Of a stretch of 64,000 nucleotides of DNA, positions 8,171 through 55,210 are shown piece by piece. Source of the stretch: a virus; IMG/VR virus record IMGVR_UViG_3300027908_000002, positions 35,076-99,075 of that record; one strand, given 5' to 3'. Both the position numbers and the translations under genes were made by a program. How positions within the stretch are numbered: position 1 is the first letter of the stretch; each line of letters starts with the position of its first letter. Under the pieces are notes generated by a model. That model ran no database searches, was not told the origin of the DNA, and saw only the letters and a program-made list of their open reading frames with translations.

Positions 8171-8398
8171 ATGTTCCCACAGTCTTTAATCTACTTCGTC
8201 ATCACTCTGATCATTATTGGCGTGCTCTTATGGGCCGCTCAGAAGCTAATTGCTTTGATTCCAATGAACGATACCATTCGCCAGGTGGTACTAGTACTGG
8301 TTACGGTGTTTCTGTTGATTTGGCTGCTTTACGCCATAATGGGCCTGATTGGCGGCGGGTTGTCATTCCCTGTGTATAGTCGCCCACTGGTCCGCTGA
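8171..8398 (+). CDS. Two-helix membrane protein, Thivi_2564-like, possible holin
   Basis: 75 residues with two hydrophobic segments: LIYFVITLIIIGVLLWAA (about 5-23) and VVLVLVTVFLLIWLLYAIM (about 39-57), separated by a short loop containing IPMND. The pattern VITLIIIGVLLW...IPM...VVLVLVTVFLLIWLL closely resembles small bacterial and phage membrane proteins of the Thivi_2564 family. In a phage this topology fits a holin, but an effector role is unproven. Confidence 0.6.
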   Translation: MFPQSLIYFVITLIIIGVLLWAAQKLIALIPMNDTIRQVVLVLVTVFLLIWLLYAIMGLIGGGLSFPVYSRPLVR

Positions 8399-8428
8399 GA
8401 TACCTTACTTCCGTTCACGTTTGTATGT

Positions 8429-8434
8429 TATGTT
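8429..8434 (+). promoter_or_regulatory. -10 box of leaderless promoter
   Basis: TATGTT followed by GGTTGC and the ATG at 8441. The same 6-nt spacer GGTTGC precedes the ATG at 27414. Confidence 0.35.
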
Positions 8435-8440
8435 GGTTGC

Positions 8441-9133
8441 ATGGCAAACAAACCATCGAGCGCTGCGGTGCAACTTCAGGTCCCGGTGATCATTTCCCAG
8501 GAGTCGCTGGCGTTCCTGAGAAAGAACAGCCGCGACGGCGACGTGAGCGCGACTCTTGCCGGGTGGACCAGTTACTGGCTGGATAACCAGGCGCGCGGTG
8601 GTATCTTGCTGGAACCAGCGGATCACGACGGAATCGCGGAGGCCAATGGTGGCAAGAGATTTAAGGATTCCCGGTCGCTGACGGCGGCGATACTGAGGGG
8701 TCTGAATCGCGACGAAGGTGGTTTCAGCTTCCGGATCTCAATCGACCCATCACATGTTCAACCGTTAAAGGAACAAGCTGAAATCTCCAATATGACAACC
8801 GAAGAACTTCTCAACGGTGTTGTAAATCAGTGTTTTACAAATGGCTGGCTGTGGGCGCTCGATCCTGTTGGTGGCAGAAGTATCCCGTTCACTCAGGAAA
8901 TGATTGCAGCCACGGCGGCGGCTTGCGGGAAACACGGCATCGACTCATCGGACATTTCTGGTTTATTGGCGGAGGATAGGTTCCTGCCGGTAAGCCGAAC
9001 GGCAAAAACCAAACTCACAGAGGTTACTGGTAAGAGAGATGTGATGTCGGTCGATGTGGATATCCTGATGGACGAACTGGCGTCCCTCCGTAAAGAAGTA
9101 GTGGAACTTAGAAAACAACCGGTGGCGGTGTAA
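8441..9133 (+). CDS. Hypothetical protein, possible DNA-binding
   Basis: 230 residues, mixed alpha/beta. It has two recurring elements of the type strand plus helices: VPVIISQESLAFLRKN near residue 15 and FSFRISIDPSHVQPLKEQA near residue 95, each followed by helices. This suggests a duplicated ribbon-helix-helix-like unit (inference). It ends in a short coiled coil (DELASLRKEVVELRK). It lies between a probable leaderless promoter and a conserved phage small gene. Confidence 0.5.
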   Translation: MANKPSSAAVQLQVPVIISQESLAFLRKNSRDGDVSATLAGWTSYWLDNQARGGILLEPADHDGIAEANGGKRFKDSRSLTAAILRGLNRDEGGFSFRISIDPSHVQPLKEQAEISNMTTEELLNGVVNQCFTNGWLWALDPVGGRSIPFTQEMIAATAAACGKHGIDSSDISGLLAEDRFLPVSRTAKTKLTEVTGKRDVMSVDVDILMDELASLRKEVVELRKQPVAV

Positions 9134-9137
9134 CACC

Positions 9138-9413
9138 GTGAAAGCCGTAACGCCAGTTGTTCCAGGCATGGAGTTGCCGATAAAGGTCTACGCCAAAGAC
9201 CAGCCGCAATATATACCGCTTCCGTGCTTTGCATTAGGCGACCCGCAAGGCACAATCACGATTCGCTGGCAATTGTCATGGAAGGAGCGATTCGAAGTAT
9301 TTCTTGGTGGCTCGATCTGGCATCAGGTATTGACCTTCGGCCATAGACTACAGCCCATTAAAATCACAACTGAGTGCCCGCTAGTAAACATCCCGGACGA
9401 TGCAGGAGAATAA
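9138..9413 (+). CDS. Conserved phage small protein of unknown function
   Basis: 91 residues from a GTG 4 nt after the previous stop. The pattern RWQLSWKERFEVFLGG...W...LTFGHRLQPIKIT matches a widespread family of short phage proteins with a W-S-W-K-E-R and L-T-F-G-x-x-L-Q-P signature that lack an assigned function. It probably belongs to the operon running to 14645. Confidence 0.6.
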   Translation: MKAVTPVVPGMELPIKVYAKDQPQYIPLPCFALGDPQGTITIRWQLSWKERFEVFLGGSIWHQVLTFGHRLQPIKITTECPLVNIPDDAGE

Positions 9414-9417
9414 AACC

Positions 9418-9759
9418 ATGAAACTACTGTTATTTGTCGCATTAATTGGCGTCGCCTCCGCGCAGAACGCCAATGTGTTCGTGTTGAAGCCATCCGAAAC
9501 GGCTACGGTTAAGGCGGCATACGGAGACGTAGTTGACGCCCAAAACGCACTAACCGAAGCGCAAAAACGGTTTAACCAGGTAAAGTCCAAAATCGCGGCA
9601 TCGCATGGCATTAAGGACTCCGATGGAGACTTTAACCCGGACTTCACGGCGTTCCAGGGCCGGATTATTAGCGGGTGGACGTGGGGAAACGGCACGTACG
9701 CCATATGTGATGGCTCTACGTCACCGGCGTGTTGCTCTTCAACTATCATTACTCAGTAG
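9418..9759 (+). CDS. Secreted small protein
   Basis: 113 residues. The ATG at 9418 is chosen because it follows an AGGAGA ribosome binding site and opens a signal peptide (MKLLLFVALIGVASAQ) with an ASAQ cleavage site. The mature part is a helix (VKAAYGDVVDAQNALTEAQ) followed by a Gly/Trp-rich tail containing ICDGSTSPACCSS. The function is unknown. It is one of several signal-peptide proteins in this genome. Confidence 0.6.
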   Translation: MKLLLFVALIGVASAQNANVFVLKPSETATVKAAYGDVVDAQNALTEAQKRFNQVKSKIAASHGIKDSDGDFNPDFTAFQGRIISGWTWGNGTYAICDGSTSPACCSSTIITQ

Positions 9760-9770
9760 GGGATTAACCT

Positions 9771-10283
9771 ATGAATCGACGATCAATCTTTAAGTTGCTG
9801 GCCGCGCCAGCGGCGGTGGCCGTGGTAAGAGCCGAGAATAAACCAGAATCTGTTGATACCTATGAGAAGCCTAAAGAAGTCGATTCGTTCCAGCACGGCC
9901 CTTGGAAGATCACATGGAGCGGGTGGAAGGACGAGCACGCCAGCGAGTTACTGTACGGCCAATGGACCGCTACTATGCCTGTCGGGGAGAACCTGGATTG
10001 GTATTTTCACGGCATCGTGGCTTTGACTACCGGGCATATTGGTGTCTACCACATGGCGGATATGTTTAATCTTTCGCAAAAAGAAGGCGAACCGTGGATC
10101 ACGGAACGATCCACCGATTACCAGCGTGAAGCCCAAGCGCATCGGACATTAAAGAGGCTGATGGAATACTTGAAAACCAATCCACTCGCCAATCCCAACA
10201 ACTGCTTTCTATGCGGACCACCTGATAAGTATGCGGGAAACTTAAAACTGGCCCTGAAGCACGGCCCGCAAGAAAGATACTGA
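9771..10283 (+). CDS. Hypothetical exported protein, Tat-like signal
   Basis: 170 residues. The N-terminus MNRRSIFKLLAAPAAVAVVRA has an RRSIFK twin-arginine-like motif and a hydrophobic stretch. The mature region is Trp- and His-rich (WKITWSGWKDEH, WYFHGIVALTTGHIGVYHM) with CFLC near the end. No family is recognised. The gene at 15450 has a similar N-terminus. Confidence 0.5.
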   Translation: MNRRSIFKLLAAPAAVAVVRAENKPESVDTYEKPKEVDSFQHGPWKITWSGWKDEHASELLYGQWTATMPVGENLDWYFHGIVALTTGHIGVYHMADMFNLSQKEGEPWITERSTDYQREAQAHRTLKRLMEYLKTNPLANPNNCFLCGPPDKYAGNLKLALKHGPQERY

Positions 10284-12071: not shown

Positions 12072-13946
12072 ATGGCATATGAAGAAATACCCCGCGCTCC
12101 TGTACGAATGGGCAAGTCCGAACGTTTCGACGTGGCCGATGGTTATGAGAGAAAAATTGAAAATTTCCGCATGGCCTCCCGCGAAGAGGCATTCCGTACC
12201 CACAAGTTAAACCACGAATCGGCCAAGATTCACGGGTACATTCAGGCGCTTCTGGGGGATGGTTTCTGGGCGGCGAATCATCGGCGCTGGCGCTCTCGGT
12301 TCGTGGATAACCGGCTGGCCAAGTGCCGACTGGACCATCTGGCGCAACTGACCGATACCAGACCGGTAATTGATGTTTCTACTTCTGTAGACGCTTATAA
12401 GAAAACGGCTCAGGTCATTGCCGCCGACATCCGCGAGATGTGGACCCGTAAAGACTGGGACCTGAAGCTCGTAAGAACCGCCGACATTGCCGACTGCTAC
12501 GGAACCGGGTTCATGCGCCTGGGCGCGGCGTGGCCTGGGGAGCAGAACGCTCTGCCGTGCGGGCCGGATCAGGTACTGCCGATTCAGCCTGGGTTTGATA
12601 TTCAGGAATCTGCGGCGGTATTGTTCCGGACGTGGAAGAGTGTATGGTGGATAAAACAAAAGTTCCCGTTTTCGTCGAACGGCATTGAGCGGGAAATATT
12701 AAATCAGCCGCTCTACGGGACATCCGGGTACAGCGCTGATATCACTTTTAACAGGCCATCGTACATCGACGAATACACCTGGAACGGTCTGTCGCAGGGC
12801 ATGAAGCGGTTACTGGGTGTCCGGGGGATGCCGACGCAGGACCCCTCAGCCGGGCAATACTACAAGACTCTGGAGATCGAAGAGTTATTTGTTGACGACC
12901 CTACGCCTAACGAATCCACCAGCGAAATTATTGTTTCTGATCCGTTCCTGCCGTTCGATGCCCATAATTGGTGGTACAGAGTAAAGCCGTCACAGAGGCT
13001 GTTTCCCAGAAAGCGCCACCTGGTTTTTGCCGGTAGCAAGCTACTGAGTGACGGGCCAGCGCCTTACTGGCACGGGCTCTACCCGTTTGCGATGTTGCAG
13101 TTTAACCCGGTCTTCTGGAGCTTCTGGGGGCTGTCCAAGTACCGGGACCTGTTGCCAATCAATATCGCTATGAACGAAATCGTTGCCGGGTGTATGGACT
13201 TGATTAAACGCGCGCTGAACCCCACGGCGATTACCAAAGAAGGCGCAGTCTCCCCGGCAGCATGGAAAGAATTCTATCCCGATCTGCCGGGCATGAAGCT
13301 CCGTGTCGGCGCTAATGAGCAGTTGACGAATGCCCTGCGTTACATGGAGAGCCCGCAAATCCCGGCTTACGTGGTCCAGATGCTGACGGGATGGCTGGCA
13401 CCGGAGTTTGACCGGATGTCTGGCGCAGTGGATGTGGCGTCTATGGGGCGCAAGAAACAGAACCCTGGCGGAGACACAATTGATTCCATGAAAGATGCCC
13501 AGAATACCAATCTGAGGCTCGAAGAACGCCAGTTGGAAATATTTCTTAGGGATGCCGGAAAACAAGTCGTAAGCAACGATTTACAGTTCTCGACTACGAC
13601 GTTCAGATTACAGCGTCTGGGAGAATCCGGGTTGACGCCATCGGACTTTAACGAGAACTCAGGGAACATGCTTCCGGAAGACGAAGCGGCGCGTCCGGAT
13701 TTCTGGAAGCAGTTTGCTTTAACTATAAGTGCCGGTTCGCTGCACTCGGGAGCCAAAGACAAAGAGAAGCAGATTGCCATTAATCTGGCCGGTAAGCGCC
13801 TGTTGCCGATCCGAAGCATGTATGACAAGTTGGAGATACCGGACGGGGCCAATGTTTTCAAGTCTCTGATAGAAGAAGAGAAGATGACGGCAGAAGCCAC
13901 GGGCGGGAAAAAAACAGGGCCGACGAGCGGGAAGAGGGAGAAATAA
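12072..13946 (+). CDS. Portal (head-tail connector) protein
   Basis: 624 residues; length, acidic/basic pattern and position between terminase and scaffold/capsid fit a portal. Helical N-terminus (SREEAFRTHKLNHESAKIH), a conserved-looking RSRFVDNRLAKCRLDHLAQ segment, and DRMSGAVDVASMGRKKQNPG near residue 455. Portals form the dodecameric ring through which DNA enters and leaves. The stretch 13140-13223 is duplicated, inverted, inside a minus-strand gene at 29674-29757. No direct catalytic motif exists for portals, so the call rests on context. Confidence 0.7.
   Translation: MAYEEIPRAPVRMGKSERFDVADGYERKIENFRMASREEAFRTHKLNHESAKIHGYIQALLGDGFWAANHRRWRSRFVDNRLAKCRLDHLAQLTDTRPVIDVSTSVDAYKKTAQVIAADIREMWTRKDWDLKLVRTADIADCYGTGFMRLGAAWPGEQNALPCGPDQVLPIQPGFDIQESAAVLFRTWKSVWWIKQKFPFSSNGIEREILNQPLYGTSGYSADITFNRPSYIDEYTWNGLSQGMKRLLGVRGMPTQDPSAGQYYKTLEIEELFVDDPTPNESTSEIIVSDPFLPFDAHNWWYRVKPSQRLFPRKRHLVFAGSKLLSDGPAPYWHGLYPFAMLQFNPVFWSFWGLSKYRDLLPINIAMNEIVAGCMDLIKRALNPTAITKEGAVSPAAWKEFYPDLPGMKLRVGANEQLTNALRYMESPQIPAYVVQMLTGWLAPEFDRMSGAVDVASMGRKKQNPGGDTIDSMKDAQNTNLRLEERQLEIFLRDAGKQVVSNDLQFSTTTFRLQRLGESGLTPSDFNENSGNMLPEDEAARPDFWKQFALTISAGSLHSGAKDKEKQIAINLAGKRLLPIRSMYDKLEIPDGANVFKSLIEEEKMTAEATGGKKTGPTSGKREK
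13140..13223. repeat. Portal-gene segment duplicated at 29674-29757
   Basis: 84 bp, 80 identical to the reverse complement of 29674-29757. The four differences are two silent and two missense (Val to Gly, Asn to Asp). The reading frame is kept in both copies. Confidence 0.9.
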
Positions 13947-25399: not shown

Positions 25400-27343
25400 A
25401 TGCCTCAACCAACACTGCAATCGAACCCGTATCCCAATTGCGACACATGGACACCAGGACAAAAGTTCATATATACCCGCACATACAGTCGGTGGCGGGA
25501 AGAAGATCAGCGACGAGAGCGCTATTCGGAAACAGTCGCGCGATATTGTGATTTCATGAAAGTTGAAATCGGAGATGCGATCACCGATAAGCACATGGCC
25601 CGCGCCTGCGAATCCATCCTGTCATTATCTGTGCTGCCGTCTATGCGCGCCCTGTGGGCTGCTGGCCCCGTATTGCGCGAAAATAATTTCACCGCTTATA
25701 ATTGCGCATACGTAGCAATTACAGATGTAACAGTATTCTCTGAGATACTGTTTATCTTGATGAGTGGAACCGGTGTAGGATTTTCCGTAGAGCGTGAATA
25801 CGTAGAGCAACTGCCATATATCTCAACGGAAACCGGCAACACGATATCCATAAAAATCTCGGATTCGCGCGAGGGATGGGCTGTCGGGCTGTTCGAAGTA
25901 CTTACAAATCTTTGGTCTGGCAACGACATAGATGTGGATTACTCGCTCATACGACCAAGGGGAGCCAGACTAAAAACGATGGGGGGGAGGGCTAGCGGGC
26001 CAGAGCCACTACGGTCCCTGTTTGAATATTGCGTTGCGTTATTTCGGGATAAGAGAGCACGACGCCAACGCCGATTGCAGCCTATAGACTGTCAGGATAT
26101 TGCAAATAAAATAGCAGAGATCGTGGTAGCTGGTGGCGTACGCCGATCAAGCGAAATAAGCCTTAGCGACCTTGATGATATGGCTGTATCCACTGCAAAA
26201 ACAGGGGAGTTCTGGCGCGACCATGGTCACCGCTCCATGAGTAACAACAGCGCTGTATATCATGGGCGGCCAGATGCGCTGACGTTTCTGGAAGAGTTCG
26301 GCAGGCTGATTCGCTCGCGTGCCGGGGAGCGCGGAATATTCAACAGGGAGGGCGCACGAAAGCAGATGATGATGTCCGGAAGGAGGGAGGATTACGAACA
26401 TATCGGAACTAACCCTTGTGCCGAAATTATCCTCCGCGATCAGGAACTGTGTAATTTGTCATCTGTGGTTGTTCGCGCAGGAGACAGTTTGGAATCACTT
26501 AGGTATAAGGTTCGTACGGCTACCATGTTCGGCGTGTGGCAATCTTCGTTCACCAGATTCCCCTATGTAAGGCCTGGATGGAAAACCAACTGCGATGCAG
26601 AGCGTCTTCTGGGTGTATCCCTTTCCGGTATTATGGACCATCCAATTCTTAATAATGTCAATGACATCATGAAGCGATGGCTGTCCGACCTTCGCGGCGT
26701 AGCCATTAACGAGTGCTCCAAATGGTCCAAAAGAATCGGCATACCCATGAGTGCCGCTATAACGTGCGTGAAGCCAGAGGGAACAAGTAGTGCATTAGTT
26801 GACTCGTCCAGCGGAATCCACCCGCGATATTCTGAATACTACATACGGCGGTATCGGATTTCTATCACCGACCCGCTGTTTCGCATGATGCGCGATCAGG
26901 GGGTAGTCGCCAATCCTGAAGTTGGGCAGGACCCTCAGTCAGCATCTACGATGGTCCTGGAATTTCCAGTAAAATCTCCATCTGGATGCAAAAACCGTAA
27001 TAGTTTCAGTGCTATACAACAACTTGAGCATTGGTTAGTTGTAAAAAACTTTTGGTGCGAGCATCAGCCATCTATGACGACTTATGTTGGCGATGAAGAA
27101 TGGCCAGCCGTGGCCGCCTGGGTATACGATCATTTCGATGATGTATGCGGGCTGAGTTTTCTGCCCCGATCTAATCATGTGTACCAACTTGCTCCCTACG
27201 AAGAAATAACCGCCACTGACTATTCGATCAGAAAGGAAGCTTTCCCTGATCTTGATTTCACTCAACTGTCTCGTTATGAAATAGAAGACGGAACGGAGGG
27301 CGCATCTTCATATGCCTGCACTGGCGACAAATGCGATTTGTAA
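25400..27343 (+). CDS. nrdJ: Class II (adenosylcobalamin) ribonucleoside-triphosphate reductase
   Basis: 647 residues. The active-site loop is TNPCAEIIL (Cys about 339) with LCNLSS following; the redox partner is the first Cys in TAYNCAYV (about 103); the specificity/effector region includes GGRASGPEPL (about 195); and the C-terminal redox pair is CTGDKCDL. These match the monomeric cobalamin-dependent reductases (Lactobacillus leichmannii type), although this protein is somewhat shorter. It makes dNTPs from NTPs for phage DNA synthesis, needs host B12 and works with or without oxygen. Confidence 0.9.
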   Translation: MPQPTLQSNPYPNCDTWTPGQKFIYTRTYSRWREEDQRRERYSETVARYCDFMKVEIGDAITDKHMARACESILSLSVLPSMRALWAAGPVLRENNFTAYNCAYVAITDVTVFSEILFILMSGTGVGFSVEREYVEQLPYISTETGNTISIKISDSREGWAVGLFEVLTNLWSGNDIDVDYSLIRPRGARLKTMGGRASGPEPLRSLFEYCVALFRDKRARRQRRLQPIDCQDIANKIAEIVVAGGVRRSSEISLSDLDDMAVSTAKTGEFWRDHGHRSMSNNSAVYHGRPDALTFLEEFGRLIRSRAGERGIFNREGARKQMMMSGRREDYEHIGTNPCAEIILRDQELCNLSSVVVRAGDSLESLRYKVRTATMFGVWQSSFTRFPYVRPGWKTNCDAERLLGVSLSGIMDHPILNNVNDIMKRWLSDLRGVAINECSKWSKRIGIPMSAAITCVKPEGTSSALVDSSSGIHPRYSEYYIRRYRISITDPLFRMMRDQGVVANPEVGQDPQSASTMVLEFPVKSPSGCKNRNSFSAIQQLEHWLVVKNFWCEHQPSMTTYVGDEEWPAVAAWVYDHFDDVCGLSFLPRSNHVYQLAPYEEITATDYSIRKEAFPDLDFTQLSRYEIEDGTEGASSYACTGDKCDL

Positions 27344-28856: not shown

Positions 28857-29522
28857 ATGGCGCAGTCACTTTACACGCTGGAACAGTTACAGGACGCCTC
28901 GTACAGCAGGCTTGAAAACAACACTCTGTTCTTCCCGGTTGCGGACATCACTGCGATCATAAACGAAGCCATCAAAGTAGTTAATATTCAAACTGCATTT
29001 TACCAGGGAACGGCCACTGCGATTATCAGCGTTAGAAATCAGTTGATTTACCCAACGCCACCGGGAATTTTATACGCTCAGCGCGTGCAGTTCGAAGGCA
29101 CTCAGCTTGACCCTGTGCCAATCACCAGAATCGGGCAGGACTACCGTACCTGGGCTACGGACACGAGCGCAAAACTGGGAGCCGTGGCACGATGGATACC
29201 CATCGGCATCAATTACTTTGCCATCCATCCGGCAGATTCGTATGGCGGCAACAGCATCTTTGTTACCGGTGTCATGGAACCGCCGCTGCTTATTCTGCCG
29301 GGAGACTCAATGACACTGGACGACGAATACGCGGATATAATCGTCGAATACGTCGCATCGCGTGTGCCTTTGGCTGTTTCTGGACCGAGCACTTCCGCCG
29401 CTTTGAGTCTGTACACCAAGAGTTTTATACCGGCTATGAAGGGGCTTACGGTTCTGGAACAGATGAAGTGGCCGAGGTTCTTTGTAATGCAAACGCCCGC
29501 CGAAGAGGGGCGGACTAAGTAG
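28857..29522 (+). CDS. Putative head-tail adaptor protein
   Basis: 221 residues. The helical start (TLEQLQDASYSRLENNTLF), the LIYPTPPGILYAQRVQFEGTQL middle segment and the helical C-terminus (LYTKSFIPAMKGLTVLEQM) fit podovirus-like adaptor proteins that ring the portal. There is no clear catalytic motif. It lies 3 nt downstream of the preceding structural gene, and its end overlaps the minus-strand gene by 8 nt. Confidence 0.55.
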   Translation: MAQSLYTLEQLQDASYSRLENNTLFFPVADITAIINEAIKVVNIQTAFYQGTATAIISVRNQLIYPTPPGILYAQRVQFEGTQLDPVPITRIGQDYRTWATDTSAKLGAVARWIPIGINYFAIHPADSYGGNSIFVTGVMEPPLLILPGDSMTLDDEYADIIVEYVASRVPLAVSGPSTSAALSLYTKSFIPAMKGLTVLEQMKWPRFFVMQTPAEEGRTK

Positions 29523-29907
29523 CTTTCTCCCCGCTTTTCTCCGCCACCAGGTTACGCATGGTCGCACTCATGCCAGCCCACGTAATCTCATCGACTCCAT
29601 TGGGTCGCTCCGGATACGTTAGGTTAACTGGTGGTTCCGAGATAGCGAAAGTATACGGGTAGTGGTTTGGTAAGGGGTCCAGTGCGCGTTTAATCAAGTC
29701 CATGCACCCGGCACCGATTTCGTTCATAGCGATATTGATTGGCAACAGGTCCCGGTACTGCTGAGACGTATGCGCCAAGCTATTCTCTGAACGCTTCAGG
29801 TACTCTTTGGTTACTTCCAGTTCCGTCTGCGCGTCCGTAAGTGCGAACGCCATCCAGACACATGCCAGTACCAGTGCCCCGATTATAAGCCCGATAATTA
29901 CACTCAT
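29515..29907 (-). CDS. Membrane protein carrying a copied portal fragment
   Basis: 130 residues on the strand opposite its neighbours. An N-terminal membrane helix (IIGLIIGALVLACVWMAFAL) and a short coiled coil (TDAQTELEVTKEYLKRSEN) are followed by residues about 51-78, which match the portal protein at 26 of 28 positions (starting YRDLLPINIAMNEI). A Pro-rich tail follows (NHYPYTFAISEPPVNLTYP). The first half resembles an Rz/spanin-like protein; the portal segment must have been copied in by recombination and kept in frame. Confidence 0.65.
   Translation of the reverse strand: MSVIIGLIIGALVLACVWMAFALTDAQTELEVTKEYLKRSENSLAHTSQQYRDLLPINIAMNEIGAGCMDLIKRALDPLPNHYPYTFAISEPPVNLTYPERPNGVDEITWAGMSATMRNLVAEKSGEKAT
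29674..29757. repeat. Inverted copy of portal-gene segment
   Basis: 84 bp, 95% identical to the reverse complement of 13140-13223; two of the four changes are silent. It encodes the portal-like stretch of the minus-strand membrane protein. Confidence 0.9.
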
Positions 29908-29967
29908 TGTGTTTCAAGTGTAGTCACCAATACGCTCCGTGTCAAGGGGATTATGTGTTCTTTTTAG

Positions 29968-29973
29968 TACAAT
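29968..29973 (+). promoter_or_regulatory. -10 box upstream of 29987 gene
   Basis: TACAAT preceded by TTTTTAG, similar to the AG-TACA context after palindrome copies 1, 7 and 10. It ends 13 nt before the ATG at 29987. Confidence 0.4.
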
Positions 29974-29986
29974 CGAATGAGCGACC

Positions 29987-30934
29987 ATGGCGACGTACTT
30001 TACAGTACAGGATGTTTATAATAGTGTCACTTCGGCAATCTGCGAACCGTGGTCATCGGGCACTGCGCCCGGCCTCACTCTGGGCATCCTGACGCTTCAG
30101 GATTTCTTTAATTTATTTGCTGTGGTCCTTGAGGAATTTCTCAATAGAACCGGGCTCGTCTGGAATATTTACACCCAGCAGTTAATCCTGAATCAGGGCC
30201 AGTACCTGGCTCCGCCTGACATTGACGAAATCAAGTGCGCGTTCATTGGCGGCCAGTGGATCGACCACCAGACACTATTTGAACTGGACCAGTGGCAATA
30301 CGCATGGCGAACCACCCTCGATGCCCCGGAATACTGGCACGAAGACGGATTGCCGCCCAAAACCATCGAAGTCGCCGCCAACCCTAGTTACACGGGAGCC
30401 GGGTACGTCATCCCCACAGGGCCGGAGCCTGAGCCGCCCTACGGCGTCTACGGCCTGTTCAACGGTGCCACGGTCGGCCAGTACACGGGAACAGTCAATA
30501 CCACCTCCACGGCGGTTACCTGGGTATCCGGGGCGCTCTTTGACGTGAACTGGAATAATTATTATCCGCCCGTGTCGATGGTAATCGCCGGGACAGCCTA
30601 CCCGATCCAAAGCGTCACTGATAACCAGGATATTATTTTGGCGCTTCCCGCTGCCACGCTCACCGCTGCGCCGTTCACGGTTTCTATCGGCAACGACGGC
30701 AATCTTACGCTTCTGGGAACGACTGGACTGATCAGTATCACGTTCACCTTAGATCAATTGGTGCCTGTTTGCCCCGATAGTTTTTGCCCAGCTTTGTCGT
30801 ACGGAATTCTGGCCAGAGTGTTCAGCACGGACGGGGAAGCTAAAGACTTACAGCGTGCGGCATACTGCGCGGCAAGATTTATTGAATTTATCAACGCCGG
30901 AGCGGCGATCTCAGGGCAGATGGTGGCTAGGTAA
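29987..30934 (+). CDS. Virion structural protein, tail region
   Basis: 315 residues. The N-terminus is helical (QDVYNSVTSAICEPWSSG, DFFNLFAVVLEEFLNRTG). A beta domain (about 155-260) contains GTVNTTSTAVTWVSGALFD. The end is helical (LQRAAYCAARFIEFINAGA). No enzyme motif is visible. Its place between the adaptor and the large fibre gene suggests a connector or tail-tube role. Confidence 0.55.
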   Translation: MATYFTVQDVYNSVTSAICEPWSSGTAPGLTLGILTLQDFFNLFAVVLEEFLNRTGLVWNIYTQQLILNQGQYLAPPDIDEIKCAFIGGQWIDHQTLFELDQWQYAWRTTLDAPEYWHEDGLPPKTIEVAANPSYTGAGYVIPTGPEPEPPYGVYGLFNGATVGQYTGTVNTTSTAVTWVSGALFDVNWNNYYPPVSMVIAGTAYPIQSVTDNQDIILALPAATLTAAPFTVSIGNDGNLTLLGTTGLISITFTLDQLVPVCPDSFCPALSYGILARVFSTDGEAKDLQRAAYCAARFIEFINAGAAISGQMVAR

Positions 30935-30959: not shown

Positions 30960-33900
30960 ATGACAAAGAAGATTCTACTGATTTCCCTGATGGCCGCCAG
31001 CGTCTTTATAGAGACGGCACACGCTCAGGCTCCCACGGCAAGCCTGCAAGCAACGTATTACTACAACATCACGGCGTCTTCTTTGCTGGACGGAGCGGGA
31101 TACATTGACAACCGCAGTCAGTTCACCCGGCAGAATAACTATCACTCGTTCTATGCCACGGGCACCGGAACATGGTCGATCACGATGCAGTATGCCGATG
31201 GCACGCCGACCGGCTGGCAGAGTTTTGGCGGGTCGGCGGTCATTTCGCAGTCCACCACTGCCATTGGATTCGGTATAGGCTACCACGATTTCATTAAGTT
31301 CGCGTTTACCGGGATAGCAGTTATCAGCAATTACTCTGCCGCTAAGAACTTTTGGTTTCCGGGCACTTCCGGATCAGGGTCTATTGTTTTCCCGATTACG
31401 GTCGGGCAGGGCGGAACCGGAGCTACCACGGCTGCCGGGGCACGCACGAATCTGGGCGCGGCAGCGAGCGGATCAAACAGCGACATTACTTCGCTTACGG
31501 CGATTCAGATCATCGACCAAACCGGCCCGGCATCGTCCACTTTGACAATTGGCGAGGCTATTAATTCGATCACAGCAAACTTGCCGTCTTCTACGACTAT
31601 CCCGTCTCAGTACGTCATGACTGGACTGGAATCCTGGATTGGTACAGATGTTGAAATGGGGGCTTACGATGTCCACCAGAGATTCGACTTGGGATTAATT
31701 GAAGTCAGCCGGGCTACGTGCGCCATCCCGTCAACAGCCAATCCAGGAGCCCCAGGAGGATACTTTTACAGCGCCAATTTCTGTGTTCCGTTTGCCGGAT
31801 ACGCATCTACTTCCAGCGCCGCCATGAGCGCCGTTGGGGCTCTCTACGATGTCTGGGTACAGGTGACAGATACAACGTCTCTTGGCCTTGGTAACGCGAC
31901 ACTGGTCGATAATATCACCAGCCCGACGCAAACCGGAACGGTGAATTTCAATGTTGCCAATTTTCCTACCCAGGTAAACTTCCAGACCTCGACGGGAGTA
32001 ATTACTTACGAGTTCTATGCCCGCGTGGATAACGAATGGATCGTGGTGATTAATCCCACCCAGGCAACCAGCGGCACGGTTGCCCTGACGGTTGTGGCGC
32101 GCGGCCTGTGGGGCAGTACCCCGGTAACACACTCCAGCGGGGCCACGGTGTATATGTCCACCGGGCACTATGGATTCGGACCAAACCCGGTAATCCAGGG
32201 CGGGACAGCCCTCGGAATTGGCGGAGAAGCGAATCAGGAAGTGTCTTTTCCTGCCAGAATCATTGGCATTGAATCCGATCTGGGATGCTTTGCCGGGTGC
32301 GCGCAACTCGAAGGCATGCTGATTCAGGGTGTATCCCGGCAACCAGCATGGGAGCCATCACACGGCGTCCTGAATGACCGGGCCGGAGCTTACTTCAGCA
32401 CTTCACTAAACGCCGTCTCCGTCGCCGGGCTGATCACTACTTACCAGTATCCGCATAAGTTGCAGGTTGGTGACCTTGCGCTTATTCAGGGCTGCCAGCT
32501 TTCCGCCTATAACGGGTTATGGAACGTGGCCAGCGTGATCGACTCGCTGAACTTCACCATCGCCGCGCCAGTCGGAGGCGGCAATGCGAATACCTACGTA
32601 AGCAGTACCACGGACCCGTTTGGGCAGTACGAAGCGCTCTACGGATCGCTCACCGGAGTCATCGCGGAGGGCATGATTATCACCGGGTCCAATGTTTCTG
32701 CCGGAACTACAGTTCTGGGAGTCAATCCGATATCCGGGCAGATAGTATTTTCGACGCCACCCAGCGGCACTCCGGGAAACCTGACATTCACCGTTCCGTC
32801 TGTTCCTGCTACGACCGGAGCCTGCAACGCCAACCAGGCGGCTCCGACATCGACCGTGACCAAACTGGGACAGCCCACGGTTACCAATGGCAATCTAAGC
32901 CTGTATGGCAATGCGACTTACAATATCCCGTTTAACTATGGCTATTACTGCGCTGACGGCGGTTGCCTGGTCGGGATGTACATCGGGACTCTGATTCAGC
33001 CATTCACACCGTATACGATGCCGTCAGCTTCGGCTCCATTGCAGTTTGGCTCATGGAACGGGGCATTCACCCAGATCGGGGAAATCTACCAGACATCAGG
33101 TGGCAGCGTTCAGATTACCGACCCAAATGGGTCGATGTTCTCCACTTTCCAGATTACACTCAACCCGCTGACCTTCAACTGGACACAGTATCCCGGTGGT
33201 ACTGTTACGGCTGGCTCCAGCGTAACGATTACGCTGCCCGGTGGCGCTCCGCGCGGAGTTAACGGCACGAATAGCAACTTCTACGTAGAACTTTCCAACA
33301 CAGCCGGAACTACCACGGAATCAGACCTGGTAACAGGTGGCACCTGTGTTTCTGCCCCTACGGGGCCCAACGGAGTCCCCTGTACGCTGATTCTCGCCAG
33401 CGTAGCCAATAACTACAGTGGCGTGTGGACAGTCAGCAGTTCGAACAATGGCGGCGCGGAAGCATTCTGGTTCAATGGCGGTGCAGGTGGCGTAGAAATC
33501 CATTATCCGCAGGGTTCTTACGTGATCCACGGGCCGATTGCCGGATCATCCAACGGGGCAGTGATATCCGGAGCGGGGCGCGTTGCCACGACACTTACGG
33601 TCGCAGCGGATTTCCCGGTAACCGGGCCGAACGCGGCGTGCGCCGTGATTATCTGCTTCAATAACACTACGAACCCGAATGTCCCCGCAACTACGTTGCA
33701 GGACATGACTATTGTCCTGCCACAGCCGTTTGCGGCCTGTTCTTCACCGTGCTCACTGAGTGGGTTTAAGCAATATCCTCCCGTGGCATATATCATTGCC
33801 GGGGCGCTGAATGCCAAAAATCTGCGTGTGGACGGCGCGTGGACCGGATTCTATATCCACAGTTCTCCGGACAACGCCACGCCAATCGTGTTTGGGGGCC

Positions 33901-35501
33901 AGAGTGACTCTGATGATGTGCAGATTTCCGCCTATGGACCCATGGGGGCATTCAACATCGCCGGGCAGGGAGACCAGATAAGATTATCCAAAACTCATTG
34001 CTGGCCATACACGAACGGAATCAATTTAACAGCAGCCTTCAGCGCCTATTTTGGCCCCACCGTACGATGCCTCGTTACGGACGGCGGCAGCGAAGGCGTT
34101 GTACAGACCACCGGCACGGCAAGCGCCAGTTCTACCGCGCTGGCTATTACCAGCGGCACACTAACGGCAAACGGGCAGGGCGTCACCGGCCCAGGTATCA
34201 GTTCCGGGACGACGATTACGTGTACGCCCAATTGCGGGGATTCAGGACCGATCACGGTAACCCTCAATCAGCCCACTTATGCAGCTATCCAGTCGGCGTC
34301 CACTACGGCCACTGCGGCGTCCGGGGCGAATATTCTTACGCTAGCTTCCGGAACCAATACACACAACGGGCAACTAATCTCCGGGGCCGGGATACCGGCA
34401 GGAACTTTTGTGGTATATGGCGGGAGCACGAATACGGTCGGTATCTCACAGCTTACGACGGCACCACTTAGTACCACGGCAGTTACATTTACTTCGCAAA
34501 TCACTTTTTTTATCAACGGCATGGCAGGATCGGACATAATGCTGGACGATTTCGAATCCAACGCTGGTGTGGCAATCGACATGGGCAACGCCTCTCAGGT
34601 GACGGCCACAAATAGCTGGTTTGAGACTTTCGGTGCAATCAAAACAGGATTCACCGGTAACGCTATCCTGAATATCTCGGCGTCTACGTTCTTCCACAAC
34701 GATGCAACTTCCGGAATAAATTGCAGCCAGCCGTCAATCTGGGTCGGTAGCCAGCCAGCGAGCATCACATTCACCGGTAACAAGGTATTGCATTACTGCG
34801 GCGCGTCCCCGTTCTGGTTGCAGACTAATCCCAGTGTTTTCTACGGGCTGTTCGCAGCGACAACCATCACGGGTAACACTTTTGAGGCGGACAAGTCTTT
34901 TCCCGGTAATGCCGCTCAGCCCAGCGTTTTTGTTTTTGACGGTGCCGGGCCGGGAGGGTCGGGCGCAGTTACCAATCTCAGCGGCAATACCATTACCTAT
35001 ACCGGAAACGTAACCTACACGCAGCCCATGCTGAATGATCTGGGGGCGCTGTTTCAGATCGGCTTCACCGGCAACCAAAGTAACAGCGTAGGCGGCGGAA
35101 CGTGGTTCTCAGCCATGGGAACCGCTCCATACGTGACATTCACGGGTAACACTATGCTGGCTACAGGCACGTGGACACCAATTGCGTTTAATCAGGTGGA
35201 TGGCAATCTGGTGATCACCGGTAACAACGGTATTGATGATATTGTCCCTACGGTTACATCTGCGGCACTGGCTGCCGGAGGAAACATCCCGCTCAGTCCC
35301 CAGTTTGTAATCAGCGGGACTTCTACAATTGGGACTATTTACGGTGTTTGGCGCAGAGCAGGGACGTTCTACACGACAGGCGCGGTTCCGTTCGTGACGG
35401 GCGGGAATATTAACCAGAATTGCACCACTACGGCGGGATGGCCGTATTCCTATACCTACGACGGCGCGACATTTTACATCATCGGTCACGGGTGCTACTA
35501 A
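30960..35501 (+). CDS. Very large fibre/spike protein with signal peptide
   Basis: 1513 residues from the ATG at 30960, chosen because it opens a signal peptide (MTKKILLISLMAASVFIETA) ending AHAQ; a longer upstream frame exists but lies within the previous gene. The middle has GQGGTGATTAAGARTNLGAA, a phage tail-fibre motif. The C-terminal half contains Asn-rich beta-helix coils (TGNTFEADKSF, TITGNT) typical of a depolymerase/tail-spike fold. It is likely the receptor-binding or polysaccharide-degrading appendage. Palindrome copy 8 lies in the signal-peptide coding region. Confidence 0.75.
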   Translation: MTKKILLISLMAASVFIETAHAQAPTASLQATYYYNITASSLLDGAGYIDNRSQFTRQNNYHSFYATGTGTWSITMQYADGTPTGWQSFGGSAVISQSTTAIGFGIGYHDFIKFAFTGIAVISNYSAAKNFWFPGTSGSGSIVFPITVGQGGTGATTAAGARTNLGAAASGSNSDITSLTAIQIIDQTGPASSTLTIGEAINSITANLPSSTTIPSQYVMTGLESWIGTDVEMGAYDVHQRFDLGLIEVSRATCAIPSTANPGAPGGYFYSANFCVPFAGYASTSSAAMSAVGALYDVWVQVTDTTSLGLGNATLVDNITSPTQTGTVNFNVANFPTQVNFQTSTGVITYEFYARVDNEWIVVINPTQATSGTVALTVVARGLWGSTPVTHSSGATVYMSTGHYGFGPNPVIQGGTALGIGGEANQEVSFPARIIGIESDLGCFAGCAQLEGMLIQGVSRQPAWEPSHGVLNDRAGAYFSTSLNAVSVAGLITTYQYPHKLQVGDLALIQGCQLSAYNGLWNVASVIDSLNFTIAAPVGGGNANTYVSSTTDPFGQYEALYGSLTGVIAEGMIITGSNVSAGTTVLGVNPISGQIVFSTPPSGTPGNLTFTVPSVPATTGACNANQAAPTSTVTKLGQPTVTNGNLSLYGNATYNIPFNYGYYCADGGCLVGMYIGTLIQPFTPYTMPSASAPLQFGSWNGAFTQIGEIYQTSGGSVQITDPNGSMFSTFQITLNPLTFNWTQYPGGTVTAGSSVTITLPGGAPRGVNGTNSNFYVELSNTAGTTTESDLVTGGTCVSAPTGPNGVPCTLILASVANNYSGVWTVSSSNNGGAEAFWFNGGAGGVEIHYPQGSYVIHGPIAGSSNGAVISGAGRVATTLTVAADFPVTGPNAACAVIICFNNTTNPNVPATTLQDMTIVLPQPFAACSSPCSLSGFKQYPPVAYIIAGALNAKNLRVDGAWTGFYIHSSPDNATPIVFGGQSDSDDVQISAYGPMGAFNIAGQGDQIRLSKTHCWPYTNGINLTAAFSAYFGPTVRCLVTDGGSEGVVQTTGTASASSTALAITSGTLTANGQGVTGPGISSGTTITCTPNCGDSGPITVTLNQPTYAAIQSASTTATAASGANILTLASGTNTHNGQLISGAGIPAGTFVVYGGSTNTVGISQLTTAPLSTTAVTFTSQITFFINGMAGSDIMLDDFESNAGVAIDMGNASQVTATNSWFETFGAIKTGFTGNAILNISASTFFHNDATSGINCSQPSIWVGSQPASITFTGNKVLHYCGASPFWLQTNPSVFYGLFAATTITGNTFEADKSFPGNAAQPSVFVFDGAGPGGSGAVTNLSGNTITYTGNVTYTQPMLNDLGALFQIGFTGNQSNSVGGGTWFSAMGTAPYVTFTGNTMLATGTWTPIAFNQVDGNLVITGNNGIDDIVPTVTSAALAAGGNIPLSPQFVISGTSTIGTIYGVWRRAGTFYTTGAVPFVTGGNINQNCTTTAGWPYSYTYDGATFYIIGHGCY
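31000..31017. repeat. Dispersed palindrome copy 8 (intragenic)
   Basis: GCGTCTTTATAGAGACGG, encoding SVFIET inside the signal peptide of the fibre protein. Confidence 0.55.
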
Positions 35502-46699: not shown

Positions 46700-48385
46700 A
46701 TGGCGGTTATTCAGGCAGACGACATTCAGGCACCGCCGTCAGATCAGACAGCTAAGCCCCCCACGCCAACAGCCACTCCGCCATCGTGGCGAAACACAGC
46801 GCAGAAAGCTGCTAAAAACATTGTTGCGGAATTACCCACAGCAGGAATGGTAATTGGCGGGGCGCTCGGCACTCCTGCCGACGTGGTGAGCGGACCCATG
46901 GGTACCGCCGTGGGGGCGGGGATTGGCGCAGGCGCAGGAGAGGCCGTGCGGCAGACTCTGACACATTGGTTTCCCGATCTAGGTGATGCGCCAAAAGGGA
47001 CCGCTGACGCACTGGAAAATACAACAAGGCAGATCGCCTTTGGCGTGGGCGGGGAGGCTGTCGGACAGGGTATAAATAAGTTATTTGAGGTTGCGGCCCC
47101 CTATGTGGCTAAAGCAGCGCCTTACGTAGCCAAAGCAGCTAAGGCTGTTTATGCTGTGCCCGACGCGGCACTGGACGCAGTATCGGGCAAGTTGAAATCG
47201 TCAGCGAGCAAGAATTTACAGGCCGTCATGCGCCCAAGTACGTCGCATTCCGTGACAGAGGCCGAATCTGCGGCAAAAGGGTTATTAGAAGGACCGGCAA
47301 GCAACTATCTTTCTTTAACCCGTAAGGGCCTTGAGAGCAAAGCAGCAGCCAGAGGCAAACAAGTTGGTGCGGCTATAGAATCAGCCGAAGCGCCCATATC
47401 AAAAGAGCCGGTCAAGGCAGAATTGGTAACTGAACTAAATAAGTCACTAAATGAATACGTTAAAAAATTCTTCCCATATAGTGTAAATCCTGATTTACCT
47501 GGATTCGACACGGATGCTCAACGTAACGAACTAGGTAAACTAGCAGAGCATTACAAGGGTATAACCAGTGCTAGTGATGCAGAAATTCCTGGGAGCGAAG
47601 TCACCAATCCTGACACTGGAGAAGTTAGAATTGATACGCAACTAGTTAAGGGAGTTGACCGTGGTGACCTTCGCAAACTCAAGCAGTTCGTCGATAAATC
47701 TATCGAAAGATCGCATGGATTCCAGATAGCGGCTGTTTCCAGGGAAAACCCATTAGCTCCAAACTTACAGGCCAAGATGGAAGTCGATAAAGTAGCGGCT
47801 GACATGTTTCGCAAGACACTAAACGAAGATCGCCCGGACATTTCCAAACTTAACGCAGAATTTCACTTAACTCAGCAGATTCGGGCGGCAATGGCACCGT
47901 TCACCCAACAGGAAAAACTACAGAAGTTTTCTACTCCATGGGCTCAGTTGTGGCACGCAAAAGCTACCGCATGGATGATTGGGCTTGGCAGCGCCGCTGG
48001 TGCCGGGGCTGGCCACTCTCTGGGCAATGCTGCCATATCGGAAACAGCGCTGGCCACCGGGGCATTATTCGCGACAGCGAAACTGATGCAAAGCGCGGCA
48101 TGGAACACCGCGAGTGCGGCGGCTAAAAACCAACTGGCCGATTTACTGGCAAAAGGGGAATATGAGTCGGTAGCCAAACTAGCAACACAGATTGCGGCTG
48201 GGACGGTTGCGGCAGCGCCTACTGCGGCAAAAGTTGCGGCAACCGATACGGCACGGAAAACGGTAAGGCCACCATCGGTCGCAAATAAAACTATCAAGAT
48301 GCGTGCTCCAAATGGGCAGACTCAGGATGTTCCAGCCGAACAGGCGGATCATTACAAATCTCTCGGGGCTCAAGTGGTTCAATAA
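46700..48385 (+). CDS. Internal virion-like protein C
   Basis: 561 residues. The N-terminus MAVIQADDIQAPPS is shared with the next protein (MAVINSEDIQSPPT). Gly/Ala-rich amphipathic or membrane-active segments follow (AGMVIGGALGTPADVVSGP, MGTAVGAGIGAGAGEAV; also 430-470), with helical charged regions between. Such features suit ejected proteins that cross the cell envelope. The stop overlaps the next start by 1 nt. Confidence 0.5.
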   Translation: MAVIQADDIQAPPSDQTAKPPTPTATPPSWRNTAQKAAKNIVAELPTAGMVIGGALGTPADVVSGPMGTAVGAGIGAGAGEAVRQTLTHWFPDLGDAPKGTADALENTTRQIAFGVGGEAVGQGINKLFEVAAPYVAKAAPYVAKAAKAVYAVPDAALDAVSGKLKSSASKNLQAVMRPSTSHSVTEAESAAKGLLEGPASNYLSLTRKGLESKAAARGKQVGAAIESAEAPISKEPVKAELVTELNKSLNEYVKKFFPYSVNPDLPGFDTDAQRNELGKLAEHYKGITSASDAEIPGSEVTNPDTGEVRIDTQLVKGVDRGDLRKLKQFVDKSIERSHGFQIAAVSRENPLAPNLQAKMEVDKVAADMFRKTLNEDRPDISKLNAEFHLTQQIRAAMAPFTQQEKLQKFSTPWAQLWHAKATAWMIGLGSAAGAGAGHSLGNAAISETALATGALFATAKLMQSAAWNTASAAAKNQLADLLAKGEYESVAKLATQIAAGTVAAAPTAAKVAATDTARKTVRPPSVANKTIKMRAPNGQTQDVPAEQADHYKSLGAQVVQ

Positions 48386-50487
48386 TGGCCGTCATAAACA
48401 GCGAAGACATTCAGTCACCGCCGACTGCGCCGCCGCCATCGGCACCGGAAACAAATTGGTTCGCGGACAATGCGCCGAAGCCTAAAGTTGCTGCCACTAC
48501 CGCGCCACCACGTCTCAATAAAGACGTTAAAAAGCCGGGAGTCGCGGGCGCATTCCAGGACGTAGACCCATCTAAGCCGGTAATTAACCAGCCAGGAACC
48601 GGTGGAGACTATCAACCTGCTTTGGCTCAAGCTGGTAACGCTATGTTCCCGGTTCTTCCCGGTGCCATGGAAGCCGCCAAGGGAGTGAAACAGGCCGTGG
48701 GGGCCAAGACCGGCACAGAATTCGCTGGCGGGGCGCATAGAGCACTTACCGGAACACTGGAAGCGGCAAGTCCGCTCATCGGAGAAGGGTTACTCAATGC
48801 TCCAATAAAGACTCTGGCAACCGTAGGCGGCGCAATGGTTACCCAGGATCGCGTGGAAGCAGGACTCCAGAAACTGGGGTTACCAAAAGAGTATGCCCAG
48901 GTTGCGGGGGATTTGGTTGGTATCCTGGCTGGCGCGGCGGCGCATCAAGGCGTCGAAGCACTGGAGTCGCTCAAAAAGCGCGTGGAGCCGGTATTGAGAC
49001 AGCGGGCGCAGGAACAGGCAAAGCCAGCAGAAACTCTCGTCACTCCGCCCAGCACTCCAGAGATACCAGTAGAAACACGGAAACCGGTAGAGACTCCCCT
49101 GGCTACCGCTCCAGTGGCTGATCAGCCTGTCGCCAAAGACGGTGATCCTGTTCCACGACTTACGGGAAGCAATCCGGAAGAGTCTGGCCCCAAGGTGGAA
49201 ACTGAAGGACAATCAGAACCCGCCGCCGCAGAAGTAGCGAGCGAAACCCGCAAGGCGCGAGAAGAGTTTCTACTTCAAGGCGTTGCGAAAGAGATGCGGG
49301 ATAGAAATCCACCCAAAGATTTAATTAAGGATGATACTGCTACTCATGGTTGGAGACAGCCTTATCCTGGAGAACGAACGAGTTTACACGCGGTATCATC
49401 AAAAGAAGCACCGCAGGTTTCCACGCCTGAAAAACCGAAGCGCTTCAAGTCCAAGAAATACGCTCCTGCTACGGAGCCAATAGCTCCAGTTAAGCGCACA
49501 GAAACTCCGCCGTCCAAGAAGAAGCCGAAAACCTTACCCGGAGACCCTGATGAATACGAACGTAAATACAAAGATATTCAGGATAAGATAGACACCAGCG
49601 AAACTGACCTTGAAAAACAGGGTATTAACCCGGTTTATCTGATACACCCTGATATGAAAAATTCGCAATGGCTTGGGTCTGAATATAAGCCTATGCCGAA
49701 AGACTTGGCTGAATTGTACCGGCAGCGTGACACACTGCAAAAAGACAACGACGATAATTTTGCAGCCGGTTTTGATGAAAACCTACGTGACGTAATACCA
49801 GACCAAGAAGCCAGACGAAAACTTGTCAATCAGATCACCGAAATCGATGTACCACCAGCGCTGCGCGGATCATATCGCAAAGATCCAAGCTGGACAGAAC
49901 TTGCCAGAATAATCCAGCACGTTCTTACCTTCGCTAGAAGGGAAAACGAAGACAAGTTTGATGATTCCTTTGCGAAGATTGAAGGTAGATTAGGCGGTAC
50001 TGCGGAATCACCAGGAATCCAGTTAGTGCTGAAAGATAACCCGGTTGGGACCAGGTACCCAACTGCTAAAGTGTTCGACCGGGCTCAAGAGATACTACGT
50101 GCGGCATTGGGAGATCAAGCCCCGGAAATTCCACGTCCAGGCAAAAAAGTAGCAAACAAGACGATTGCGGAACCGGAACCGATAGTTCCAGTTAAGCGCA
50201 CAGAAACTCCGCCGTCCAAGAAGAAGCCGAAGAAAGTACCCCAGGAACAAGAAGAATCAGAAGCCAAAGAGCCGTCTAATGAAGATGAATCAATCGACAT
50301 AGAAACCGGTCTGTCAAATAAATCCCTTAAACGATTAAAGGCAACGCTGGATATTTACAAAAAATACGACAAACAAACAGACGATAGCGTGTTTAAAAAA
50401 GCGGCAGAAGACAATAAGGCAAAGCCCACCAAGAAGACCGCTCCCCCGCCATCAAAGAAAAATAAGCCTAGTCCTCCAGCGAAATAA
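48385..50487 (+). CDS. Internal virion-like protein D with repeats
   Basis: 700 residues. It shares its first ~15 residues with protein C. Ala/Gly-rich segments (about 80-200) precede a charged, Lys/Pro-rich C-terminal half. The segment PVKRTETPPSKKKPK occurs twice (about 370 and 600) as a near-identical ~58-bp DNA repeat, and a shorter PPSKKNKP ends the protein. The final part is highly basic/acidic and probably disordered. Palindrome copy 11 lies near its start. The end overlaps the convergent minus gene by 20 nt. Confidence 0.5.
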   Translation: MAVINSEDIQSPPTAPPPSAPETNWFADNAPKPKVAATTAPPRLNKDVKKPGVAGAFQDVDPSKPVINQPGTGGDYQPALAQAGNAMFPVLPGAMEAAKGVKQAVGAKTGTEFAGGAHRALTGTLEAASPLIGEGLLNAPIKTLATVGGAMVTQDRVEAGLQKLGLPKEYAQVAGDLVGILAGAAAHQGVEALESLKKRVEPVLRQRAQEQAKPAETLVTPPSTPEIPVETRKPVETPLATAPVADQPVAKDGDPVPRLTGSNPEESGPKVETEGQSEPAAAEVASETRKAREEFLLQGVAKEMRDRNPPKDLIKDDTATHGWRQPYPGERTSLHAVSSKEAPQVSTPEKPKRFKSKKYAPATEPIAPVKRTETPPSKKKPKTLPGDPDEYERKYKDIQDKIDTSETDLEKQGINPVYLIHPDMKNSQWLGSEYKPMPKDLAELYRQRDTLQKDNDDNFAAGFDENLRDVIPDQEARRKLVNQITEIDVPPALRGSYRKDPSWTELARIIQHVLTFARRENEDKFDDSFAKIEGRLGGTAESPGIQLVLKDNPVGTRYPTAKVFDRAQEILRAALGDQAPEIPRPGKKVANKTIAEPEPIVPVKRTETPPSKKKPKKVPQEQEESEAKEPSNEDESIDIETGLSNKSLKRLKATLDIYKKYDKQTDDSVFKKAAEDNKAKPTKKTAPPPSKKNKPSPPAK
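48510..48527. repeat. Dispersed palindrome copy 11 (intragenic)
   Basis: ACGTCTCAATAAAGACGT, encoding RLNKDV in internal protein D. Confidence 0.55.
49473..49530 (+). repeat. Direct repeat, copy 1
   Basis: 58 bp encoding EPIAPVKRTETPPSKKKPK; its last 45 or so bases match 50175-50232 almost exactly. Confidence 0.8.
50175..50232 (+). repeat. Direct repeat, copy 2
   Basis: 58 bp encoding EPIVPVKRTETPPSKKKPK, about 700 bp downstream of copy 1 in the same gene and frame. Confidence 0.8.
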
Positions 50488-54667: not shown

Positions 54668-55210
54668 TTAACCGGGGAGTTTCTCCGCCCGTGCCAGCCA
54701 CCCTGCCAGGTTCCCCGCCAGTTCCGGGTGAGCTTCCGCGATGGTATTGTAGTGGTCTTCCAGTTCCGACACCAGCGCCGCCAGAAGCATGAACTCGCCG
54801 TTCGGGTAGGTAAGTTCAGCCTGGATGGCGGCGATGGTAGCCGGGCCGATCAGCCCGTCGCACGTAATATGTTCCTCGTGCGGTTCCAGTGGCTGATTCA
54901 GAGTCGATTGCAGTAACTTGATTCCGGTCTGCGGCCCGCAGTTAACGCAGATATCCAGCATCTTAGTTGCGATATTGTCATTGGGTATCTGGTCAAGTTT
55001 GATATCCCGCCACCAGTACTTGTAATAGAGATCGATTGCCGCGTCCCGTGACAGGTTCCTGATGGTATCAGCCGTGGCCTCCGGGTCGATGGTTTCCAGC
55101 CATTTGAGAGATATCCCAAAGTTGGAGCATTCATGTGTTACCGGGCTCTCGTATAGACCGCCTTCGGAATTTAAAAGATAGTTAACTGCTTTGGTGAAAT
55201 CAGGCATCAA
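54668..55210 (-). CDS. Endolysin, GH108 N-acetylmuramidase type
   Basis: 180 residues. FTKAVNYLLNSEGGLYESP carries the catalytic Glu in an E-G-G motif, followed by CSNFGISLKWLE as in GH108 (ZliS-like) lysozymes. DICVNCGPQTGIKLLQSTL and GLIGPATIAAIQ match the peptidoglycan-binding helical domain normally fused to it. It cleaves the peptidoglycan glycan chain at the end of infection. No signal peptide is present, so it needs a holin. ATG at 55210 or 55207; it overlaps the nuclease stop. Confidence 0.82.
   Translation of the reverse strand: MMPDFTKAVNYLLNSEGGLYESPVTHECSNFGISLKWLETIDPEATADTIRNLSRDAAIDLYYKYWWRDIKLDQIPNDNIATKMLDICVNCGPQTGIKLLQSTLNQPLEPHEEHITCDGLIGPATIAAIQAELTYPNGEFMLLAALVSELEDHYNTIAEAHPELAGNLAGWLARAEKLPG

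Follow-up and report, generated by a model that had tools for sequence, protein, structure and literature searches.

An accessory gene between structural genes

The window, the whole 64,000-nt stretch analysed here, is taken from a viral contig 99,075 bp long, of which it covers positions 35076-99075. It contains a small minus-strand gene, P0001, that fills a short insertion between two genes for structural proteins. The features of this junction are:

28857..29522, plus strand: upstream neighbour, a structural protein (PHROG 399, E 6e-4); its 3' end overlaps the end of P0001
29495..29515, minus strand: weak terminator-like hairpin at the end of P0001; such sites are no more numerous here than in shuffled sequence
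29515..29907, minus strand: P0001, chimeric gene, 130 aa; membrane helix (about residues 3-21), coiled-coil-like stretch, segment A (51-78), linker, segment B (101-122)
29523..29986, no strand: insertion between the two structural genes, 464 bp; missing from most relatives
29917..29945, minus strand: sigma-70-like promoter-like site, TTGACA-17-TACACT (10/12 match), directly before the P0001 start codon
29987..30934, plus strand: next gene downstream, with an adaptor-like product (matches Pfam SU10_adaptor at E 1.5e-4, short of the curated cut-off)

Homologues of both neighbours occur together in 20 related records. The gap between them is -55 to 15 bp in 15 of these, and 245-305 bp in the other five, three of which look like one virus. 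Small plus-strand ORFs, different ones, lie in the same junction in G037-G039, G028 and G021 (L069, L091, L080; three distinct gaps inspected). Because the wide gaps hold differing ORFs, the junction looks like an insertion spot. Judged from this comparison, P0001 is an accessory gene at a junction that takes small inserts.

A moron is a single accessory gene located between core genes, often with its own promoter and terminator. P0001 resembles morons in its opposite strand, its promoter-like and terminator-like sites, and its position in an insertion whose flanking genes adjoin each other in relatives. It differs from them in that the base composition is ordinary (50.9% G+C in the insertion versus 52.9%) and in that one stretch of it was copied from the portal of the phage itself. 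The promoter-like site is suggestive only, since three such sites were found in 2.5 kb, against 2.0 in shuffles; its spacing to P0001 would yield an almost leaderless message. P0001 would be a moron-like accessory gene, probably transcribed on its own.

The coding character of P0001 is clear from its codon usage: the gene scores 0.143 per codon, and 130-codon tiles cut from long ORFs have a median score of 0.152. Residues 1-50 score 0.162 and residues 79-130 score 0.088, whereas the five other frames of the insertion range from -0.46 to -0.14. With its typical codon usage and its promoter-like site, and occupying the insertion as it does, P0001 looks like a real gene.

Elsewhere, the window encodes a ribonucleotide reductase with B12-dependent-type domains (25400-27343). 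It also contains a 58-bp direct repeat, 94.8% identical (49472-49529 and 50174-50231, within ORF 48385-50487), and a short-period tandem repeat that runs to the contig end (63805-64000), where the assembly probably breaks.

A copied portal segment

The portal gene lies elsewhere in the window, on the opposite strand to P0001. It and the two related segments are:

12072..13946, plus strand: portal gene, 624 aa (PHROG 1216 portal, E 9.5e-12; structural model)
13140..13223, plus strand: source of segment A within the portal gene, at predicted helix 357-382
29674..29757, minus strand: segment A, copy of portal codons 357-384 (putative stem helix 1); 80/84 nt, 26/28 aa

The sequence-only reading had reported an 84-bp inverted repeat with four differences, two of them silent, and the repeat is exactly as it described: window positions 13140-13223 and 29757-29674 agree at 80 of 84 sites. 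From portal to copy the differences are T>G (V371G), T>C (silent), G>A (silent), and A>G (N383D). BLAST aligns 86 bp (13138-13223, 95.3%, E 1.4e-32), and outside both ends of the 84-bp repeat identity falls immediately to background level. The copy forms in-frame residues 51-78 of P0001, so the earlier statement that 28 portal residues lie in frame past the membrane helix stands. The accompanying term "inserted" goes beyond the evidence, as no allele lacking the piece was found. In the entire 99,075-bp record, DNA resembling P0001 occurs in the portal gene only.

Two element-based origins were considered and rejected. A diversity-generating retroelement does not fit, as the differences are not adenine-specific (T>G, T>C, G>A and A>G; in reverse, G>T, C>T, A>G and G>A). 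For an insertion sequence or IS200/605 end, no transposase family matched P0001, the insertion's one long minus-strand ORF. An Rfam search of positions 29400-30100 gave no match at E up to 1.

The locus is known from one metagenomic contig, so a chimeric assembly that placed portal reads inside P0001 must also be weighed. This explanation is very improbable: the two copies differ at four positions; the frame is open, with gene-like codon usage across both junctions; and a parallel case, described below, is identical in four separate records.

A structural model of the portal (31 sequences, mean pLDDT 78.6) matches solved portals including those of SU10, N4, P22 and T7; Z reaches 24.6, with 380 residues aligned at an rmsd of 3.4. 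In this model the copied codons 357-384 correspond approximately to one whole predicted helix, 357-382. We read this helix as stem helix 1, given its position ahead of a short mixed region and then a second long helix (432-450), with the clip lying between the stem helices. The same stem-clip-stem layout is described for YonE in the accessible part of PMC12847820. A coincidence with whole-helix boundaries as good as that of segment A, noticed post hoc, is found for 5 of the 596 possible 28-residue windows.

How old is the copy? Segment A matches its own portal at 80 of 84 positions, and the next closest portal, that of L004, at 62 of 84. (Over 1839 bp the L003 portal shows no difference from the one here.) Segment A is thus far nearer to its own portal, indicating that the copy was made after this portal and that of L004 split, and the proposal of a recent transfer by recombination is thereby supported. 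The two replacements most likely arose in the copy, because V or L and N are retained at these sites by the nearest portals. In a set of 28 portals the first site most often holds G (13) or V (10), and the second N (23); the copy carries G and D, both of which occur in the portal family.

Evidence for selection on segment A is not significant: a random draw of changes would give P 0.22 for two silent ones in four, and the occurrence of both replacement residues in other portals at those positions has p about 0.12. Retained function, as earlier suggested, is possible.

A second portal-like segment

When P0001 and its own portal were compared by BLASTP, another portal-like segment emerged, absent from the sequence-only account:

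29542..29607, minus strand: segment B, P0001 residues 101-122, portal-like; 10/22 identical to residues 228-249 of its own portal, 11/23 to the L004 portal
12753..12818, plus strand: part of the portal wing that segment B resembles; helices are predicted at 234-239 and 242-248

With reference to portals of the SU10/N4/P22 fold, segment A would be stem helix 1 of the virus's own portal, and segment B resembles the wing. The order of the two segments in P0001 is opposite to that in the portal.

Is the likeness of segment B real? Only about 22 residues are involved, the DNA agrees at just 27 of 66 bases, and the codons are saturated: eight of the identical residues could be encoded in more than one way, and none of these has the same codon in both. 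Moreover, a 35-residue antisense ORF in a related record (G015:C1:18203-18307, minus strand) reaches E 0.01 with the same wing profile, probably by chance. Against chance likeness, with segment A alone portal-derived, stand several results. Shuffles of residues 79-130 never reached the segment B score with the portals of this virus, L003, L004 or L005 (0/~2000 each); with the more distant L006 portal, 19/1997 did. A 31-portal profile gave segment B 11.9 bits, compared with 5.0 for the best of 5000 shuffles. Finally, when the wing-segment profile was run against 29,597 ORFs of the virus group, P0001 was the top non-portal (E 1.7e-5), the next being at 0.01. Chance likeness is accordingly judged unlikely.

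The lack of any shared degenerate codon (0/8) implies that segment B is very old, came from elsewhere, or is convergent. By these comparisons segment A would be recent, and segment B either old, or acquired from another virus, or the product of convergence.

Two further readings of this region were set aside. Distant portals stretch the P0001 alignment to residues 50-112 (L037, 40% over 63), but a clip-like linker is not evident: residues 79-112 match portal residues beyond 330 no better than shuffles do (379/500 reach the score). As for the P22 tryptophan belt, those residues are dispensable for scaffold binding, according to the available portion of the source, and segment B could not be mapped onto them.

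The P0001 protein

Portal-like sequence accounts for 50 of the 130 residues of P0001. With a membrane anchor and these segments in permuted order, P0001 is not itself a portal. Hydropathy, which peaks at residue 3 with a value of 2.78, points to a single membrane helix near the N-terminus (about residues 3-21); the flanking charges do not decide its orientation. A single-sequence fold consists of one helix, residues 2-76, at low confidence (pLDDT 61.7). As this helix is unbroken, the portal piece would prolong the coiled-coil-like stretch, and the product would be a small membrane-anchored helical protein.

Pfam, NCBIfam and PADLOC gave no useful match for P0001, and 49 related records contain no homologues of it other than portals. 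A viral contig scan with P0001 matched only the L003 portal; scans with the adaptor-like, 386-aa and 1548-aa neighbour proteins recovered no new relative of P0001 or of its neighbours. A genome contig scan with the portal alignment likewise found no relative of the locus. In a phage collection, P0001 as query returned nothing (best chance match E 3) and P0002 returned two distant portals only. L003-L006, the contigs with closely related portals, are 5-9 kb long and end short of the P0001 locus.

One known family does invite comparison. Rz-like inner-membrane spanins (PHROG 15533), like P0001, begin with a membrane helix that leads into a long helix, and the two match weakly (E 0.0093, residues 3-63). 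No spanin family is among the Pfam matches of P0001, and a simple, crude scan found no candidate for a lipobox partner beside it. Unlike spanins, P0001 lies 25 kb from the endolysin-like gene, and its C-terminal half carries the portal segments. (The endolysin-like gene, at 54668-55614, is beside a Holliday-junction-resolvase-like gene.)

A parallel capture in a distant relative

Fifty records were searched with a portal profile, and each record, or the available stretches of it, also with its own portal. Convincing non-portal ORFs were found in two viruses only: P0001 here, and a 131-codon open frame in the virus represented by G036-G039. (Another match, in L033 with E 0.044, is no better than chance.) The four records G036-G039 carry identical copies, and are counted as one virus and one event.

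L050 1116-1439 (also L048, L049 and L051; G039:C1:58071-58394): parallel ORF, coding-like, with a 169-bp portal copy

Here 169 bp of the virus's own portal gene, codons 388-443, are copied in frame into a 107-aa ORF about 9.8 kb upstream of the portal, in the same orientation and with 95% identity. Aligned to the portal model, the piece spans the clip region together with the beginning of stem helix 2. All eight differences fall within the first 46 bp and seven of them change a residue, so that this part of the copy is not conserved; the other 123 bp are identical. The unique 43-codon tail of the ORF scores 0.153, against a gene-tile median of 0.124, and its five other frames are negative. With its coding-like tail, this ORF also looks like a chimeric gene. 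The capture is independent of that in P0001; it is found in a distant relative, and the piece taken is the neighbouring one in the portal.

To gauge how unusual such captures are, 14 long records (1.14 Mb) were surveyed for repeats more than 2 kb apart, and for fragments of 859 long ORFs inside other ORFs. Once the repeats listed below are set aside, the portal gene, in two of the 14 records, stands alone among recognisable core structural genes in having a piece of itself within an unrelated small ORF; among the 859 query ORFs, no other core gene had a fragment fused into an unrelated small ORF. As P0001 was the starting case, the independent evidence is the G036-G039 case alone, and the portal gene makes up about 2% of the genome.

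The remaining repeats were read by eye and set aside as IS200/605 ends, collagen-like and other repeats, contig-end redundancy, or HNH-like paralogues. A few were left unexplained, and fragment duplication as a general habit of these phages was rejected. The unexplained repeats are in G010, G031, G041 and G045, together with a fragment pair about 600 bp apart in G039 (87453-89185). Two further observations were made. G023 (L130-L133), from a relative of this phage, has several IS200/605-like elements, for example at 32920-34443 and 8383-9971, with TnpA-like and TnpB-like ORFs (recognised by eye) and scattered end fragments. G039 has two inverted copies of an ORF composed of short repeats (AAGVSTRDLL-like), about 13 kb apart (G039:C1:56480-56864 and 69427-69841).

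In wider surveys of well-sampled portals, places beyond one per record numbered two for SU10 (317 records), 22 for T7 (2535) and five for lambda (549); matches broken at the ends of records may account for some of them, and short pieces in remote relatives would escape such a count. In the accessible portions of the literature on portal fragments, duplications, decoys and portal-sensing defences, no description of such a capture was met. The capture of fragments into accessory genes is a known process; its recurrence from one gene is what makes the present case notable.

Mimicry or neutral capture

How might P0001 have arisen, and what might it do? Portal sequence would have been acquired at least once recently, when stem helix 1 was copied by a short template switch or by illegitimate recombination. 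An earlier, long-ago uptake of the wing segment is probable. The likeliest use would be mimicry: a monomeric piece of the stem and wing surface competing for a protein that normally binds the portal. This partner could be a host portal-sensing defence protein, for which P0001 would act as a decoy, or the phage's own adaptor or terminase.

That P0001 is a membrane-anchored portal mimic of some kind is the reading tentatively preferred here, plausible though somewhat short of probable. The copy, its frame and its source are established, and the frame is coding-like on both sides of the copy. Mimicry is further favoured by segment B, by the whole-helix boundaries of segment A, by the G036-G039 capture, and by the outcome of the 859-ORF control. 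Two independent in-frame captures from the portal suggest that the captured pieces may be functional mimics of the part that sensors recognise.

Several points weigh against mimicry. There is no significant signal of selection on segment A; at degenerate positions the codons of segment B never agree with those of the portal; the linker is no more portal-like than shuffles; and seven of the eight differences in the parallel copy change a residue. Moreover, portals are the only homologues of P0001 in the 49 related records, and two events are few. The main obstacle is topological. The weak spanin match, if meaningful, would put the portal pieces outside the cytoplasm, and a C-terminal part so placed, as in spanins, cannot meet a cytoplasmic sensor or adaptor.

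Almost as likely as mimicry is that the capture was neutral, or structural only. Here a short template switch would have placed a helix of the portal within a helical stretch able to tolerate it, lengthening the helix and nothing else. The recipient would be a spanin-like or other accessory membrane protein, and the portal origin of the piece would be functionally meaningless. This fits the Rz-like profile match over residues 3-63, the continuous helix that runs through the copied piece in the low-confidence fold, and the lack of a selection signal. In addition, sense orientation in frame is estimated to be roughly a one-in-six accident. Neutral capture would nevertheless require two coincidences: segment B within the same protein, and an independent in-frame portal capture elsewhere with none comparable from other core genes.

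Among the possible forms of mimicry, one is regulation of head-tail assembly, with the tethered mimic occupying adaptor or terminase until portal rings are ready. P0001 does adjoin the adaptor-like gene, and the SU10 adaptor, through its embracing loop, contacts the portal clip, stem and wing loop, according to the portion of PMC9509320 available. However, relatives lack P0001 at this site, so the phage group assembles without it there. The opposite strand and the separate promoter-like site also argue against co-regulation with the structural neighbours, and this role seems rather improbable.

The other form, a decoy for a host sensor, draws on published portal-sensing defences (SpbK/YonE/Nip, and Avs4). 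In the accessible parts of these reports, the portal parts bound by the SpbK and Avs4 sensors are stem, wing and clip, and the pieces captured here are parts that those sensors bind. A monomeric portal piece could occupy a sensor without activating it. P0001 (stem plus wing) and the G036-G039 protein (clip) would occupy sensors of the Avs4 or SpbK kind while lacking the complete portal surface or ring that activation requires. We regard this specific form as doubtful. The antagonist Nip, as described in the text available, binds the sensor's TIR domain and, unlike P0001, is not said to derive from a portal. The literature searched mentioned no decoy made of a portal fragment.

The suggestion of a decoy or interference peptide in the sequence-only reading has therefore gained support from segment B, the G036-G039 parallel and the published portal-sensing defences, and is weakened by the lack of a selection signal and by the topological obstacle. 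Its extension to the whole group, in which these phages repeatedly build small counter-defence proteins from their own portal, is likewise regarded as doubtful.

Were it true, self-derived decoys, refreshed by recombination with the very gene that they imitate, would form a new class of anti-defence gene. Two separate captures in frame, each into a coding-like small gene and each from the sensor-read part of the portal, would tie the origin of new phage genes to the arms race with the host. Moreover, fragments of a phage's own portal in small ORFs would provide a simple signature for finding counter-defence genes.
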